Source: a virus. From it: a stretch of DNA of 24,172 nt. Each line of letters opens with the position of its first letter. The stretch's first letter is position 1. Location: IMG/VR virus record IMGVR_UViG_3300044622_000452, positions 1 to 24,172 of that record; one strand, given 5' to 3'. Made by a program: the position numbers and the translations under genes. The notes under the pieces are model-generated. The model was not told the origin of the DNA. It saw nothing but the letters and a program-made list of their open reading frames with translations, and did no database searches. Shown here piece by piece: positions 15,389 to 20,288 of the stretch.

Positions 15389-15582
15389 GCTGTTATCCAT
15401 TCTTTCGATGTTGTGCCACATTCCCCGCAGTTGTCCAAGCCTTCGGCGGCTAGGTCGTTTAGTTCCCAGCTGTAAATTGGGCGCTTTTCGTTGCTTTCTG
15501 GGTCGATTGCCGGCAGATCATGGCCGCATGGTGCACAGTAGATGTCTGCCCAATATGCGTAAGCGTATGGCCTGTGGCTCAT
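15385..15582 (-). CDS. double-CxxC zinc-ribbon-like protein, 65 aa
   Basis: Cys16-x2-Cys19 and Cys52-x2-Cys55 form the two knuckles of a likely zinc ribbon, separated by an acidic segment with YSWELNDLAAEGL. The opening AYAYWADIYCAPCGHDLPAID resembles small proteins of unknown function that I associate with actinobacterial phages and plasmids. Start ATG 15582 overlaps the ArdA-like gene's stop as ATGA, and its stop overlaps the membrane-peptide gene in the same way. This makes it the third gene of a tightly coupled operon. An adaptor or anti-defence role is inferred from its neighbours only. Confidence 0.72.
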   Translation of the reverse strand: MSHRPYAYAYWADIYCAPCGHDLPAIDPESNEKRPIYSWELNDLAAEGLDNCGECGTTSKEWITA

Positions 15583-16148
15583 CGGTTCCCCCAGTAGTGG
15601 CCTTGTTCTTCGGTGTAGTCGTGCTGTAACCAGCCGTAGTAGTACTGCTCATAATCGAAGCAGTTGGCTACTATTTCGTTTTCTGTGCCGTCGAATACTG
15701 CAAGTGCATCAGCCATATGTTCGGCAAAGTCTTTCGGCGTGTTGTATTCGCCGTGATAGTTCGCTTCATGGTAAGCAATTAGTTCTTCGATGCTCATGTG
15801 GCCGCCAACGTCTAACCATTCGCCGAGAATTATGATCTGCTCTAGTTCGTTGCTGTTGTGTAGTTCGCTGATCTGTTCGGCGTTCTCGTATAGCGCTTTT
15901 AGGTTGCGTGTGCTGTGCGGTAGGTGTTCATGGTCTGCTAGTTCCCATTCATCGGCGCCGCAAACTTTGCAGGCGGTGTAGTTCGATCCGCTTGGGTAGG
16001 TTGCGGTTTCGCCTTGCCCTATGTAGGTGATCTGTTCGGCGGTTACTTCTTCGGCTATTTGTTCGATGGTTGCCCATTTGCCAAGTGCTCGGCCATTGTT
16101 TAGACAACTTAGGCAGACTATGCAGGCGGCTGGTGTGTCTGTTTTCAT
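15579..16148 (-). CDS. ardA: ArdA-like antirestriction protein with a CxxC insert
   Basis: ArdA proteins mimic B-form DNA and block type I restriction enzymes. Visible ArdA features are the N-terminal CLSCLNNGRALGKW (residues 12-25) and the DEWELADHE stretch (66-74). Also present are the helical EELIAYHEANYHGEYNTPKD (121-140) with FAEHMADAL (141-149), and a C-terminal DYEQYYYGWLQHDYTEEQGH (165-184). Net charge is strongly acidic, as expected for a DNA mimic. At 189 aa it is somewhat longer than the usual 165-170. The excess includes extra Cys residues (Cys9, Cys12, Cys15, Cys60-x2-Cys63 and His73/75) that could bind a metal. Start ATG 16148 overlaps the upstream stop as ATGA and has GGAGAAACAAA before it. 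Confidence 0.82.
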   Translation of the reverse strand: MKTDTPAACIVCLSCLNNGRALGKWATIEQIAEEVTAEQITYIGQGETATYPSGSNYTACKVCGADEWELADHEHLPHSTRNLKALYENAEQISELHNSNELEQIIILGEWLDVGGHMSIEELIAYHEANYHGEYNTPKDFAEHMADALAVFDGTENEIVANCFDYEQYYYGWLQHDYTEEQGHYWGNR

Positions 16149-16426
16149 TTTGTTTCTCCGTTTAGGTGAGCTAGTAGTTCTTCGCGGTTTAGAAAGTAAT
16201 AGTGGTTTATGTCTTGATCTTCGTTTATGTATTCGCCCAAGTGGTGCGGTTCGTTGGCTTGTGGCACGCTTGCATCTTCGCAGTGTGTGACCATGAAATA
16301 ATGCGCCCAGATTTTAGGGTCAGCTTGTAGCACTAATGCGGTGCAACCGCCGCCCGTATGTTCTAGATACCAATTTTTTCCTGTAAGTGTTGCTAGTTCG
16401 TCAGCTAGTTGTTCTTGCTCTTTCAT
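16145..16426 (-). CDS. first gene of accessory operon B, HTGGGC protein, 93 aa
   Basis: This is a small protein with the conspicuous core NWYLEHTGGGCTALVLQ (residues 18-34), a strand-rich middle (HYFMVTHCEDA) and a Tyr/His-rich segment (INHYYFLNREELLAHL). It resembles proteins of unknown function carried by actinophages and plasmids. ATG 16426 follows the 16-base inverted-repeat leader (ACACTTGGGAGAGTGT), whose GGGAG supplies the ribosome-binding site. The C-terminus GETK-stop is written in the same bases as the ribosome-binding site of the ArdA-like gene. It is co-transcribed with ArdA and could be an antirestriction or anti-defence partner, which is inference from linkage. Confidence 0.75.
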   Translation of the reverse strand: MKEQEQLADELATLTGKNWYLEHTGGGCTALVLQADPKIWAHYFMVTHCEDASVPQANEPHHLGEYINEDQDINHYYFLNREELLAHLNGETK

Positions 16427-16430
16427 GTTT

Positions 16431-16446
16431 ACACTCTCCCAAGTGT
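16431..16446 (-). promoter_or_regulatory. leader inverted repeat with ribosome-binding site in its loop, copy B
   Basis: Minus strand ACACT-TGGGAG-AGTGT, five perfect base pairs closing a six-base loop that holds the Shine-Dalgarno GGGAG, four bases before ATG 16426. The identical 16 bases lie at 18387-18402 before the first gene of operon A. A DNA operator or an RNA translational switch is possible. Confidence 0.6.
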
Positions 16447-16475
16447 GTCGGCCTTGTTGGTGTAGCCTGTTTTAT

Positions 16476-16504
16476 TTCTAATAGACGTTTAGGGTGTTTG
16501 TCAA
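16476..16504 (-). promoter_or_regulatory. promoter of accessory operon B
   Basis: Minus strand TTGACA (16504 to 16499), a 17-base spacer and TTAGAA (16481 to 16476), overlapping TATTAG at a 15-base spacing. The A-tract just upstream (16507-16530) looks like an UP element. It shares the 10-mer TTACTTGACA with the operon A promoter. The leader to ATG 16426 is about 45 bases. Confidence 0.6.
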
Positions 16505-16552
16505 GTAATGTTTTTAGTTTTTTTTTAGTGCTGTTCGCTGATCTGTTTGACG

Positions 16553-16765
16553 GTGCGTAAATTGTTTTTATTTGGTGAGCGTGATCTGATCGAACTGTGC
16601 GAAGTGTGCGGCCGTGAATTGTTGGCGCCAGGTTTTGTAAGTGTTGCTGTGCGCTGTGAGTGGTGGGCAGTGTGTCGCCGGAATGTCACTAGCCCAGGTT
16701 TAGGTGAGTTCGGTAGTTGGCGGTGGCGGAGTGGTGGCGGTAGCGGTAGCACCATCAAGGGGTAA
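16553..16765 (+). CDS. possible plus-strand four-Cys protein, 70 aa
   Basis: This is the only plus-strand frame in the window that reads like a protein. From GTG 16553 (TTG 16547 is an alternative) it has Cys16-x2-Cys19 (LCEVCGRELLAPG), Cys35 and Cys41 (RCEWWAVCRRN), a plausible zinc-ribbon spacing. The C-terminus is Gly/Ser-rich and runs into the stem-loop at 16740-16780. There is no convincing ribosome-binding site or promoter. The competing minus-strand frame (16525-16758) is a Pro/His/Arg/Ser-rich shadow. It could be an antisense-oriented moron or chance. Confidence 0.25.
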   Translation: MRKLFLFGERDLIELCEVCGRELLAPGFVSVAVRCEWWAVCRRNVTSPGLGEFGSWRWRSGGGSGSTIKG

Positions 16766-16780
16766 CGGTGCTACCGCTAC
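16740..16780 (-). terminator. 14-bp stem-loop ending accessory operon A
   Basis: Perfect 14-base arms, GTAGCGGTAGCACC (16740-16753) and its complement (16767-16780), around a 13-base loop. It starts seven bases past the stop of the last small gene of operon A. No T-run follows on the minus strand. On the plus strand a T-rich stretch follows seven bases later, so it might act in both directions. Its arm contains GGTAGCGGTAGC, which also occurs twice at 18787-18849. Confidence 0.5.
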
Positions 16781-16786
16781 ACGGGT

Positions 16787-16951
16787 TTATTTTTGTAGGT
16801 GGCGGTAGGCCAAGTGTGTGAATGGGTATATGCACAGCATGGTGGTTGCCCACCAGATTATGCCTGCGTCTTTGCCGATGGTGGCGGCACACACAAGCAA
16901 GGTGGTGGCGGTAGTGGTGACTAACGATTTAGTGACGATGTGGTTAGTCAT
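16787..16951 (-). CDS. 54-aa two-span membrane peptide
   Basis: Begins MTNHIVTKSLVTTTATTLLV and ends AYRHLQK. There are two hydrophobic stretches, about residues 11-26 (VTTTATTLLVCAATIG) and 31-46 (IIWWATTMLCIYPFTH), separated by KDAG, which predicts a hairpin in the membrane with short ends. ATG 16951 overlaps the upstream stop as ATGA and has GGAGACAACAAA as ribosome-binding site. It is the last gene of operon A, before the stem-loop. Such hairpin peptides include small holins and exclusion proteins, but nothing here proves either. Confidence 0.6.
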   Translation of the reverse strand: MTNHIVTKSLVTTTATTLLVCAATIGKDAGIIWWATTMLCIYPFTHLAYRHLQK

Positions 16952-17118
16952 TTTGTTGTCTCCAGTTCGTCTAGTTCATAAATCATCATGTCGTCAAGGT
17001 CAAAGTAACCATCTTCTAGTTCGGCTTGTATCATTCGCAAGGCCGTGTCGTAGTTTTCGATCACGTGACAGTTCAGTTCGTAGCCTGCGCTAGTCCAAAT
17101 AGTCCATTGTTTAGTCAT
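16948..17118 (-). CDS. acidic small protein, 56 aa
   Basis: I chose ATG 17118 (MTKQWTIWTSAGYELNC) rather than the longer frame from 17175, because it begins right at the end of the upstream gene (ATGACTAA, 8-base overlap). The C-terminal half is strongly acidic (AELEDGYFDLDDMMIYELDE) and ends ETTK-stop, encoded by the ribosome-binding site of the next gene. The family is unknown. A small acidic protein next to an ArdA-bearing operon could be a DNA mimic, which is speculative. Confidence 0.6.
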   Translation of the reverse strand: MTKQWTIWTSAGYELNCHVIENYDTALRMIQAELEDGYFDLDDMMIYELDELETTK

Positions 17119-17434
17119 TGTGTATCCAATTCGATGGTGACGTTGGGAATGTTTGGTTTGGGTGTCTGCCGTCATAATGCTTTATGGCAATACCGTAATC
17201 GTTTCGTTCGCTGTCGGTCATGTTTTCCCACGTGTCACAGTCGTCTTGTGTCCAGTCGGTTGTGTCAATGACTACAAGTGTTGCTGCGTCACCAAAGGTT
17301 CCGGTGTCGGTGTCAAGCCATAGTCGGTTTGGGTAGTAGTCGTTCATGCTGTCACGGGTTTTGGTTTGTCGCATTATTTCGTTTATGAATGTGATATGCG
17401 ATTTGCGCATGATCTGGTCGTAGTCAGTGGTCAT
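17111..17434 (-). CDS. Asp/Thr-rich small protein, 107 aa
   Basis: Begins MTTDYDQIMRKSHITFINEI and has a very Asp/Thr-rich middle (LWLDTDTGTFGDAATLVVID, then TTDWTQDDCDTW). The end is Pro/Asn/Trp-rich. The family is not recognised. ATG 17434 is preceded by GGAGACAACAAA. The 20 bases around its start are identical to those at the start of the 50-aa gene (17607), whose protein begins MTTEHD, so the two gene starts may be a duplication. The acidic character is shared with its neighbours. Confidence 0.68.
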   Translation of the reverse strand: MTTDYDQIMRKSHITFINEIMRQTKTRDSMNDYYPNRLWLDTDTGTFGDAATLVVIDTTDWTQDDCDTWENMTDSERNDYGIAIKHYDGRHPNQTFPTSPSNWIHND

Positions 17435-17446
17435 TTTGTTGTCTCC
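17430..17446 (-). repeat. GGAGACAACAAAATGAC start module (also 17603-17619 and 16947-16963)
   Basis: An identical 17-base sequence containing ribosome-binding site, spacer, ATG and second codon stands before three genes of operon A. A close variant, GGAGAAACAAAATGA, stands before the ArdA-like gene (16145-16159). At three of the four sites it also encodes the C-terminus (ETTK or GETK) and stop of the preceding gene. Confidence 0.75.
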
Positions 17447-17454
17447 TGTTTTGG

Positions 17455-17607
17455 TTAGCTGACGTTTGCGGATAGTAATTCACATTCTTTGCAGGTAGTC
17501 CAATCTCCTGTTACTTCGCATTGTTCGCCATCGTAAATTGCATGGCCCAAGCTTCGTAGTTTCCACAGTTCTGCAAAGAACGGGTTTGTGTCATGTTCGG
17601 TGGTCAT
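17455..17607 (-). CDS. three-Cys microprotein, 50 aa
   Basis: Found by reading from the repeated ribosome-binding module: ATG 17607, TAA at 17455-17457. Cys30, Cys39 and Cys42 (GEQCEVTGDWTTCKECE) suggest half of a zinc site or a metal-bridged dimer. It begins MTTEHDTNPFFAELWKLRSL and has no hydrophobic segment. It overlaps the upstream gene by ATGA and is followed after 20 bases by the next start. The function is unknown. Confidence 0.6.
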   Translation of the reverse strand: MTTEHDTNPFFAELWKLRSLGHAIYDGEQCEVTGDWTTCKECELLSANVS

Positions 17608-17774
17608 TTTGTTGTCTCCATTTCATGTTGTTGGTTGTGATATTCGAGGTCATCGGTTTCCCAATAGACATAGATTTGGCCGCAAGTTAGACATTCGGCG
17701 CAAGGATTACCAGCAAGTTGTGATCGGTAGAAATACCATTTATTCGGGTAGTCGTCAATCATTATGCGGCTCAT
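17604..17774 (-). CDS. CxxCxxC microprotein, 56 aa
   Basis: ATG 17774 overlaps the stop of the SQGDG-family gene as ATGA. Tyr/Trp/Asp-rich N-terminus (MIDDYPNKWYFYRSQLAG), then Cys25-x2-Cys28-x2-Cys31 (PCAECLTCGQ), then an acidic/His-rich tail (ETDDLEYHNQQHEMETTK). The final ETTK-stop is the ribosome-binding module of the next gene. A metal-binding small protein of unknown role; it could be an adaptor for its larger neighbour. Confidence 0.62.
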   Translation of the reverse strand: MSRIMIDDYPNKWYFYRSQLAGNPCAECLTCGQIYVYWETDDLEYHNQQHEMETTK

Positions 17775-18385
17775 TTGTCACTCCAAAACTCAATGCTGTC
17801 AATTTCACCATTTTCGGTAAAACGGCGTGAGTAATCGTTGTTTAGATATTCACGGATAGTTTCTTCACAAGTAAGCCATTTGATTTGGTCATACCCAATT
17901 TGTTCTAGCTGTCGGCAGATATCACGTATCTGGTCTGCAAATTGTTCGTTCTCTGGGCAGTCACTATCTATTTCGTAACCATCTTCGTCATACCGGAATA
18001 CGGCGATATTCATGGTGTATGCGTGGCTGTAATGGTTGCTTAGGCTGTTGCGGGTCAAGGTTGCGGTAGTGCCGTTGCCCCACTCTAATTTTGGTGCATC
18101 ATCGCTGTTTAGTGTGCCGTAGATCGCAACACCATCGCCCTGACTGTTAGATAGTGACCATTCGATTTGTAGGCCAACACGTTTTGTTAGTTCTTTGCTG
18201 CTGATCTCACCAACACATTCGCCAGTAAGCATCGTTAGTAGTTCGCCGTTCAGACATTCTGCGATTTGGTCTGGGTCTATCCAGTCATATAGCAACGCTG
18301 ACATTTTTTCTAATGCGTATTGACGAGCTGTATCTGACAGTTCATCTAACGTAAACACGGTTTTTGTTACCGTTGTTGGTTTCAT
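17771..18385 (-). CDS. SQGDG-motif phage accessory protein, 204 aa
   Basis: This protein belongs by eye to a family widespread in phages and plasmids. It carries a start of the type FTLDELSDTARQYALEK, a central NSQGDGVAIYG (about residues 80-90) and a C-terminal block with a Cys-rich, acidic half (LTCEETIREYLNN). Members are sometimes labelled antitoxin-like, without biochemical proof that I know of. I prefer ATG 18385 to the GTG at 18388, because the leader's GGGAG then sits seven bases away instead of four. It is the first gene of operon A, with a consensus promoter, and is followed by five micro-genes. Co-regulation with the ArdA operon suggests an anti-defence or host-modulating role (inference). 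Confidence 0.75.
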   Translation of the reverse strand: MKPTTVTKTVFTLDELSDTARQYALEKMSALLYDWIDPDQIAECLNGELLTMLTGECVGEISSKELTKRVGLQIEWSLSNSQGDGVAIYGTLNSDDAPKLEWGNGTTATLTRNSLSNHYSHAYTMNIAVFRYDEDGYEIDSDCPENEQFADQIRDICRQLEQIGYDQIKWLTCEETIREYLNNDYSRRFTENGEIDSIEFWSDK

Positions 18386-18386
18386 C

Positions 18387-18402
18387 ACACTCTCCCAAGT
18401 GT
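18387..18402 (-). promoter_or_regulatory. leader inverted repeat with ribosome-binding site in its loop, copy A
   Basis: Identical to the 16 bases at 16431-16446 (ACACTTGGGAGAGTGT on the minus strand), one base before ATG 18385. The Shine-Dalgarno lies in the six-base loop. Two perfect copies in front of two separate operons argue for a shared regulator or shared origin. Confidence 0.6.
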
Positions 18403-18404
18403 TC

Positions 18405-18419
18405 CCCCGTCAAGCGGGG
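18405..18419 (-). promoter_or_regulatory. GC-rich leader hairpin of operon A
   Basis: CCCCG-CTTGA-CGGGG on the minus strand, immediately downstream of the predicted transcription start and upstream of the SQGDG gene. It has no T-tract. It may stabilise the 5' end of the message, or attenuate. The operon B leader has no counterpart. Confidence 0.45.
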
Positions 18420-18427
18420 CTAGGGAC

Positions 18428-18456
18428 AGTATGACTAACTATTTTTGGAATGTCAA
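18428..18456 (-). promoter_or_regulatory. promoter of accessory operon A
   Basis: Minus strand TTGACA (18456 to 18451), a 17-base spacer and CATACT (18433 to 18428), which is a near-consensus vegetative-sigma promoter. Predicted start is about 18421, giving a leader of roughly 36 bases. It lies immediately after the stop of the 41-aa gene. Confidence 0.68.
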
Positions 18457-18463
18457 GTAACGA

Positions 18464-18916: not shown

Positions 18917-19039
18917 TCACACTTTTATCATTGGGATTGGTTTGTGTTTGTTGCTGCACGTTGGTGGTTGCACTACGGGCAGGTGCGTAATCATTCGTTG
19001 CTGACAATTTGGGCATGACCAGTGTTCACCTTTTGGCAT
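18917..19039 (-). CDS. zinc-ribbon-like microprotein, 40 aa
   Basis: ATG 19039 lies inside the end of the methylase gene (14-base overlap), whose last codons contain AAAGG but only downstream of this start. Cys9-x2-Cys12 (EHWSCPNCQQR), then Cys28 and His32 (PTCSNKHK), are spaced like a small zinc ribbon. Its stop lies nine bases before the next ATG. The tight packing supports it as a gene; the function is unknown. Confidence 0.5.
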   Translation of the reverse strand: MPKGEHWSCPNCQQRMITHLPVVQPPTCSNKHKPIPMIKV

Positions 19040-20288
19040 ATTCAACCTTTCTTATTTGTTCTGCAATCCATTTTGCTACGGGTGTGGCAACACCGTTCCC
19101 ACATTGTCGATAGCGGTGGGTGTCGGCTTGTTCTGTTCCGTCAGCTTTATACCTGGTGTGATTGTCGGGCCAACCCATCAAACGCTCACATTCAAGCGGG
19201 GTTAGTCGTCGTACTGCCATTACTGGCTCTGAAATAAACATGGGAACATTGTTACCACCAGTACCCATTCGTTGCTTTAGTGTTTGTACTGGTGGCTCGT
19301 ACACGCGCACATCATCTACTCGCGTGCCATCTAAAAGCATTGGTTGTTCTTCCCAGGGTACACCAGCATCAGAAAACCATTCAACCCCAACAGGAACTAA
19401 AGACCAATCAGAGGGCTTGTGGGTTGGCATTGGTTCAACAACGCATTTGTTTTCAGCAACGTATTGGTTGCCGACACCTTTATAGTCTCTTGCTGCGAGT
19501 GTGCCAACAACTTCTTGGTTTTCAACAACCATGTTGTAATACTCTGATCCGCTTGGACCTGCAGAACCTTTATACCATTTAGAAGTCACAGAGGTTCTAA
19601 GAATGTCTCCATTTTCGGTGCTTCCTGCTGCCCACTGACCATCGCTTCCAAAGCTTTCTGTAACTTGGCCGGAAGGTTCTTTCCTCTTTTGTTTGCCCTT
19701 CTTAGTATCCCCTGGCACGCTTTCGGTGACAGGTAGTAGCGGGTTTGGACATCGCTCGGCGGTTGAAGGATCGAAGCAAGAGACGAGGAACACGCGCCTT
19801 CGTCGTTGGGGGACTCCGAAGTACTGTGCGTCCAAGAGAGCGTACTCTTGGAGATGCGCCCCTGCTTTAGCCATTTCATTGATGACTGTCCCAAAATCTC
19901 GTCCGTTGTTTGAGGACAAAGCTCCTGCGACGTTCTCCCAGACTGTCCATCGGGGAAAAGTTCCATTGGTTGCATCTCTCATCTCCTTTATTATTCGTAC
20001 GGCTTCGTGAAATAGTCCTGAACGCTCACCTTCTAAGCCTGCTCGTTTACCAGCAACGCTGAGGTCTTGACATGGGCTGCCAAAAATGATGCAGTCCACG
20101 GGCGGGATTTCTGCACCGTTGACATCGGAAACATCAAGCCATTTCGGTACATCGGGCCAATGTTTGTTGAGGATTTGCTGACAGTTCTTATCCCATTCGA
20201 CTTGGAACTTGCAATCCCATCCCGCCTGTTCAAAGCCCATGTCAAACCCGCCAACACCAGCAAACAAACTTCCAAAAGTTAACGCCAT
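19026..20288 (-). CDS. dcm: DNA (cytosine-5) methyltransferase, orphan
   Basis: The protein transfers a methyl group from S-adenosylmethionine to C5 of cytosine in a specific site. Motif I is SLFAGVGGF (7-15), the catalytic motif IV is GSPCQDLSVAGKR (70-82, nucleophile Cys73), motif VI is ENV (118-120) and motif VIII is QRRRRVF (161-167). The C-terminal motifs are RRLTPLECERLMGWPDNHT and QCGNGVATPVAKWI. The target-recognition region, about 175-360, includes GTLAARDYKGVG. Total 420 aa is normal for the family. No restriction enzyme is beside it, so it probably protects phage DNA rather than forming a restriction-modification pair. ATG 20288 has TAGGAGT upstream. Confidence 0.95.
   Translation of the reverse strand: MALTFGSLFAGVGGFDMGFEQAGWDCKFQVEWDKNCQQILNKHWPDVPKWLDVSDVNGAEIPPVDCIIFGSPCQDLSVAGKRAGLEGERSGLFHEAVRIIKEMRDATNGTFPRWTVWENVAGALSSNNGRDFGTVINEMAKAGAHLQEYALLDAQYFGVPQRRRRVFLVSCFDPSTAERCPNPLLPVTESVPGDTKKGKQKRKEPSGQVTESFGSDGQWAAGSTENGDILRTSVTSKWYKGSAGPSGSEYYNMVVENQEVVGTLAARDYKGVGNQYVAENKCVVEPMPTHKPSDWSLVPVGVEWFSDAGVPWEEQPMLLDGTRVDDVRVYEPPVQTLKQRMGTGGNNVPMFISEPVMAVRRLTPLECERLMGWPDNHTRYKADGTEQADTHRYRQCGNGVATPVAKWIAEQIRKVEYAKR

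Follow-up and report, generated by a model that had tools for sequence, protein, structure and literature searches.

The complete IMG/VR record IMGVR_UViG_3300044622_000452 (24,172 bases, G+C content 48%), referred to here as the window, carries on its minus strand two accessory operons that open with similar leaders (Table 1). Each operon is preceded by one exact copy of the promoter word TTACTTGACA, which the window contains at these two places only, and its first ATG by one exact copy of the 16-mer ACACTTGGGAGAGTGT, which forms a hairpin, H2, with GGGAG of the Shine-Dalgarno (SD) sequence in its loop. The 16-mer lies 4 nucleotides (nt) from the ATG at 16426 in operon 1 and 1 nt from the ATG at 18385 in operon 2. 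A second, different hairpin, H1, is found just upstream of H2 in each leader. No further site with three or fewer mismatches to the 16-mer exists in the window, and since shuffled sequence gives a mean of 0.25 such sites, the two perfect copies are not due to chance. The DNA between promoter and hairpin is unlike in the two operons. The identical copies, the SD in the loop and the absence of a simple duplication had all been put forward in the original prediction, and all three were confirmed.

Table 1. Leaders and genes of the two accessory operons in the window.
Feature	Position	Strand	Remarks
Operon 2 promoter, TTACTTGACA	18451-18460	-	-35 TTGACA 18451-18456; -10 CATACT 18428-18433; spacer 17 nt; good -10
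Operon 2 hairpin H1, CCCCG-cttga-CGGGG	18405-18419	-	Predicted mRNA 5' end, 7-8 nt past -10 box; covariation
Operon 2 hairpin H2, ACACT-UGGGAG-AGUGU	18387-18402	-	SD core GGAG within loop
Operon 2 first gene, SQGDG protein, 204 amino acids from ATG	17771-18385	-	phrog_5162, no assigned function
Operon 2 small genes	17604-17774, 17455-17607, 17111-17434, 16948-17175, 16787-16951	-	Mostly without family match
Operon 1 promoter, TTACTTGACA	16499-16508	-	-35 TTGACA 16499-16504; weak -10 TTAGAAA about 16475-16481
Operon 1 hairpin H1, GGCU-acaccaacaa-GGCC	16450-16467	-	GGCC/GGCC in nearest relatives
Operon 1 hairpin H2, 16-mer identical to operon 2 copy	16431-16446	-	SD core within loop
Operon 1 first gene, 93-amino-acid orphan	16145-16426	-	Open reading frame (ORF)
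Operon 1 second gene, ArdA-type antirestriction protein	15579-16148	-	PF07275 7.2e-11; phrog_2059

The window encodes a WhiB protein (4e-18), a family regarded as typical for Actinobacteria and their phages (PMC10202952), and the nearest annotated relatives of its terminase, at about 25% identity, are Streptomyces phages. The source is therefore probably an uncultured phage of Actinobacteria, and in all likelihood these hosts are freshwater actinobacteria; a search for the host through the terminase among GTDB contigs gave no match. All results given below are comparative predictions across metagenomic contigs. The relatives were sampled as 78 loci with a related terminase from IMG/VR, many of them on contigs that are fragments. 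Several loci overlap or are near-identical, and raw match counts thus exceed the number of independent cases; the E-values of the models are rough.

In the relatives both arms of H2 change together, and more than 12 stem versions precede a start codon at the 78 loci. These include ACACT/AGTGT, GCACT/AGTGC, ACGCT/AGCGT, ACAGT/ACTGT, CTAGA/TCTAG, GCCTA/TAGGC, CTGAA/TTCAG, ATAGA/TCTAT, GTCTC/GGGAC, GACTC/GGGTC and GATCC/GGGTC, as well as others, and H2 ends 0-9 nt from the start codon in the leaders found. It had been proposed that absence of the 16-mer upstream of orthologous operons would speak against the element; in many relatives the letters are indeed absent, but the structure is not. When the pairing was ignored and non-redundant sites were selected on the loop TGGGAG and a downstream ORF only, four to five pairs were present at 26 of 43 start-associated sites, against 14 of 176 away from starts (p=7e-13). 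A tally of six-base loops placed TGGGAG first, with 16 distinct stems (a few of them probably chance) against at most six for any other loop. The H2 rows of the relatives, which were preselected for pairing, are 97.6% paired with a covariation of 1.20 against 0.26 when shuffled. The 18 leaders of operon 2 type, mostly those of SQGDG orthologs, are 98.9% paired; 8 of 10 pairs are changed on both sides, and the covariation score is 0.716, compared with 0.264+-0.035 for shuffled and at most 0.094 for slid alignments. H2 of the operon 1-type leaders is 96.9% paired. A chance origin of the element is ruled out by the shuffles, the loop tally and the pairing-blind test. As the letters change while the pairing stays, H2 is, judged by its covariation, an RNA structure under selection, in line with the RNA hairpin that had been suggested earlier.

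Not every match belongs to a leader. An exact scan of IMG/VR for the 16-mer retrieved 25 stretches, about half of which are leaders with promoter, hairpin, 16-mer and ATG; the other half have no leader context and are ascribed to chance, as are most matches to the ACGCT version. An apparent enrichment of the loop TGAGAG was mostly terminase coding sequence.

An inverted repeat and a promoter word common to two operons could also be expected of a DNA operator, a palindromic site for one dimeric regulator. However, the stems differ within the genome in 12 of the 15 relatives that carry at least two copies, and some stems contain G.U pairs (GACTC/GGGTC) that break DNA symmetry. The loop is fixed and asymmetric, always oriented with the gene and bound to the start codon, and these features, together with the G.U pairs, point to an RNA and away from a palindromic DNA site. 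The within-genome differences rule out a palindrome read by one regulator, and we give this explanation next to no credence. Since stems are usually unlike within one genome and drift with their pairing kept, a single stem-specific regulator is likewise unlikely, and the earlier inference of one regulator from the two identical copies is not supported.

The H2 loop of the relatives reads (U/C)GGGAG. RNAfold pairs the U with the final G of UGGGAG, which leaves GGGA as a GNRA-type tetraloop, and the last bases in this reading spell the SD core. Across the relatives the tetraloop is closed by U.G or C-G, and a mismatch often lies beneath the C-G pair. A G precedes GGAG in 34 of 46 SDs in such hairpins but in 42 of 255 other SDs, which prefer A, and 42 of the 46 have U or C as the second base before GGAG. 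The loop is thus under more constraint than SD pairing calls for, and this, along with the constant size, the place at start codons and the presence before several operons per genome, would agree with an RNA translational operator. A protein of the phage or its host would then bind the loop as a hexaloop xNGGAx, like that of CsrA/RsmE targets, on any stem, and repress or activate the operons jointly. CsrA sites carry a GGA in a hairpin loop, which the present loop resembles. On the other hand, CsrA was not found in 18 phage records although the control search worked, no candidate regulator was identified, and the stem letters vary, even in the closing pair. Such an operator is considered possible but rather doubtful.

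The loop could alternatively be the site of a RegB-like endoribonuclease that cleaves GGAG and silences the messages after the early phase, and its geometry, GGAG with GGA unpaired, is like that cut by T4 RegB without S1 (PMC3014915). No RegB homolog (PF10715) was found in the 18 phage records, however, and the GGAG of other genes in these operons is unstructured, which makes a nuclease site very unlikely.

Compensated versions of H1 are also found in the relatives, and in the 18 leaders of operon 2 type H1 is 100% paired and covarying. Where a promoter is recognisable, H1 starts about 6-8 nt past the -10 box even though its sequence varies widely from leader to leader, and it is therefore placed at the predicted mRNA 5' end. 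The sister phages L137, L140, L046, and L052 carry an H1-like hairpin past the promoter together with an unpaired SD (AAGGAG, AAGGGG) and no H2; in L137 and L140 the gene is a distant SQGDG gene and the SD is AAGGAG. H1 seems, from the leaders compared, to be more widespread than H2. At L032, L035, L037, L065, and L067 the hairpin leaders are on the strand opposite the terminase and lie behind extra G+C-rich inverted repeats, for example CCTAGCCC...CTAGG; a TTGACA promoter is often missing. These extra repeats would be further structured intergenic RNA.

The number of copies per genome was counted by covariance-model search of the relatives. Of the clade's near-complete records (38-40 kb), most contain two to three copies and some others none, and all copies in these records sit close to the terminase, within the accessory region. 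Among phages with terminases about 85-87% identical to that of the window the element is present in some and not in others, which indicates that it is gained or lost as a module. The first genes behind the leaders fall into 19 unrelated clusters by blastp, including SQGDG proteins, ArdA, and matches to a DNA polymerase processivity factor or RusA. The element was present at all 23 loci with nearer SQGDG orthologs (one loop TTGGAG, one CGGGAG) and was not found at the distant orthologs (L134-L142). A tie to one gene is thus ruled out, as unrelated genes follow the leaders and distant SQGDG orthologs lack them.

The predicted recurrence before accessory operons in related phages was borne out for both orthologous and unrelated first genes, while the proposed anti-defence regulon stood only in part. 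The ArdA-like gene is what it was taken for, although it is the second and not the first gene of operon 1, and ArdA is among the first genes elsewhere, with no other gene between it and the leader in L006, L015, L058, L060, L062, and L066. Most other gene types, however, have no known function, and no protein of the window operons matched PADLOC. In the window the 93-amino-acid orphan sits between leader and ArdA, unlike in L006, L015, L058, and L060, and this slot looks like an insertion point. A search for relatives of the orphan found none, and the predicted structure of the SQGDG protein (mean pLDDT, predicted local distance difference test, 85) had no fold match in PDB.

Unrelated genes behind the same leader, and three internal genes with GGAGACAACAAAATG, would also be in keeping with a recombination joint, where conserved leader DNA supplies homology for cargo swapping and the structure is incidental. 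Homology would keep the letters, though, and not the pairing with changed letters. As the explanation of the element this is highly improbable; exchange at leaders may occur as a side effect.

We favour, with moderate confidence, the explanation that the element is a cis-acting tandem-hairpin RNA leader which serves accessory operons as an exchangeable start module. The comparison shows that the pairing is kept and covaries, that the loop is fixed, that the leader stands at the start of accessory operons and that it is re-used before unrelated genes. In this reading each operon opens with two tandem hairpins. H1 coincides with the predicted mRNA 5' end or lies no more than a few nt from it, and H2, 0-9 nt from the start codon, holds GGAG in a GGGA tetraloop that a U.G or C-G pair closes. 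H1 might shield the mRNA 5' end from 5'-end-dependent decay, while H2 might keep the initiation site compact and preformed. The 30S subunit would read the exposed SD and then melt a stem of about -5 kcal/mol; the predicted H2 energies are -5.0+-1.1 kcal/mol, compared with -5.5+-2.2 kcal/mol for random stems. Exchangeable accessory genes would thereby be given a set translation level or timing, independent of their own sequence.

Several points weigh against such a start module. When the operon 1 leader is folded together with coding sequence, the minimum free energy structure opens H2 and pairs inside the gene instead. H1 need not be 5'-terminal in some leaders that are transcribed away from the terminase without a recognisable promoter, and H2 is evidently dispensable for such phages, as sister clades use an unpaired AAGGAG. 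The loop is also under stronger selection than the SD alone would require, which recognition by a protein could explain as well. A phage-wide RNA switch, in which a phage or host factor reads the SD-containing GNRA-type tetraloop and sets the translation of all early accessory and counter-defence operons at once while the stems drift freely, is a further reading that we think unlikely.

Some further repeats are found in and around the two operons. An identical 15-mer, GGAGACAACAAAATG, comprising SD and start, is common to three internal genes of operon 2 (16963, 17446, and 17619, minus strand), and the ArdA gene start carries a near copy, GGAGAAACAAAATG; this is a repeated ribosome-binding site without structure, and possibly a junction at which genes are exchanged. 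A long perfect inverted repeat, GTAGCGGTAGCACC ... GGTGCTACCGCTAC, at 16733-16786 separates the genes of operon 2 from the promoter of operon 1; it is followed by a T-rich stretch on the plus strand and is perhaps a terminator. A small inverted repeat, ACGGT-aacaaaa-ACCGT (18357-18373), lies inside codons 5-10 of the SQGDG gene and is a possible third hairpin. A C5 cytosine DNA methylase (PF00145, 8e-61) is encoded at 19026-20288 on the same minus strand, upstream of both operons, and its place beside ArdA possibly points to self-modification.

An Rfam 15 scan of the window gave no family at gathering score, and two weak microRNA matches elsewhere are chance. The closest parallel is found in the start-associated sequences (SAS) and extended start-associated sequences (ESAS) of Cluster K mycobacteriophages (PMC3203893) and Cluster EF Microbacterium phages (PMC7302621). 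Both SAS and the present element are short repeats in the position of the ribosome-binding site, before unrelated non-structural genes of actinophages. In both the SD core lies between complementary arms (GGG...CCC in SAS), often with a second element just upstream, and the placement 0-9 nt before the ATG is SAS-like. The conserved SAS 13-mer GGGATAGGAGCCC and its EF form GGGAAAGGACCCC are, however, absent here, where the loop is UGGGAG and the stems vary. The non-structural half of a genome with SAS contains 11-19 of them, compared with two to three copies per near-complete carrier record here. SAS further have a 3-bp stem with the letters kept, whereas here the letters drift and both hairpins covary. 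In Anaya, TM4, and Pixie the SAS letters are kept, and most departures break the 3-bp stem, one (in Pixie) being compensated. For ESAS the authors of the SAS work found no support for RNA pairing. The present element thus shares the place of SAS but not their defining features and is classed as a start-codon RNA element, which appears to work like SAS without being a member.

Other known systems resemble single parts of the leader. In CsrA/RsmE targets a short hairpin overlaps the SD and exposes GGA in its loop, here xGGGAG on a 5-bp stem, and like the T4/RB69 gp43 operator they are small hairpins of the initiation region; the cognate protein CsrA was, as stated, not found in the phage records. 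The gp43 operator hairpin is about 40 nt upstream of the start codon (PMC3014915), while in the present leaders the loop contains the SD itself. In T4 genes 25 and 38 (PMC3014915) a structured initiation region is compatible with or favours translation, as proposed here, but there the structure lies between SD and AUG and shortens the spacing, while the present hairpin encloses the SD. For an SD cleaved by RegB the geometry fits and the phage enzyme is missing from the records searched. The 5' stabiliser stem-loops of ompA and papA (cited in PMC3997798) are placed at the transcript 5' end, as H1 is predicted to be; H1 differs by its coupling to H2, and its effect on stability is only proposed. 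SAS repeats at phage start codons have been on record since 2011 with no function assigned to them. If the phage-wide switch were true, structured start elements may also underlie SAS-like repeats of other actinophages. In the present family pairing and not letters is plainly conserved, which opens the role of the structure to arm-swap testing, and the H1-H2 leader offers a handle for finding fast-changing accessory genes, including ArdA-type antirestriction, in uncultured freshwater phages.
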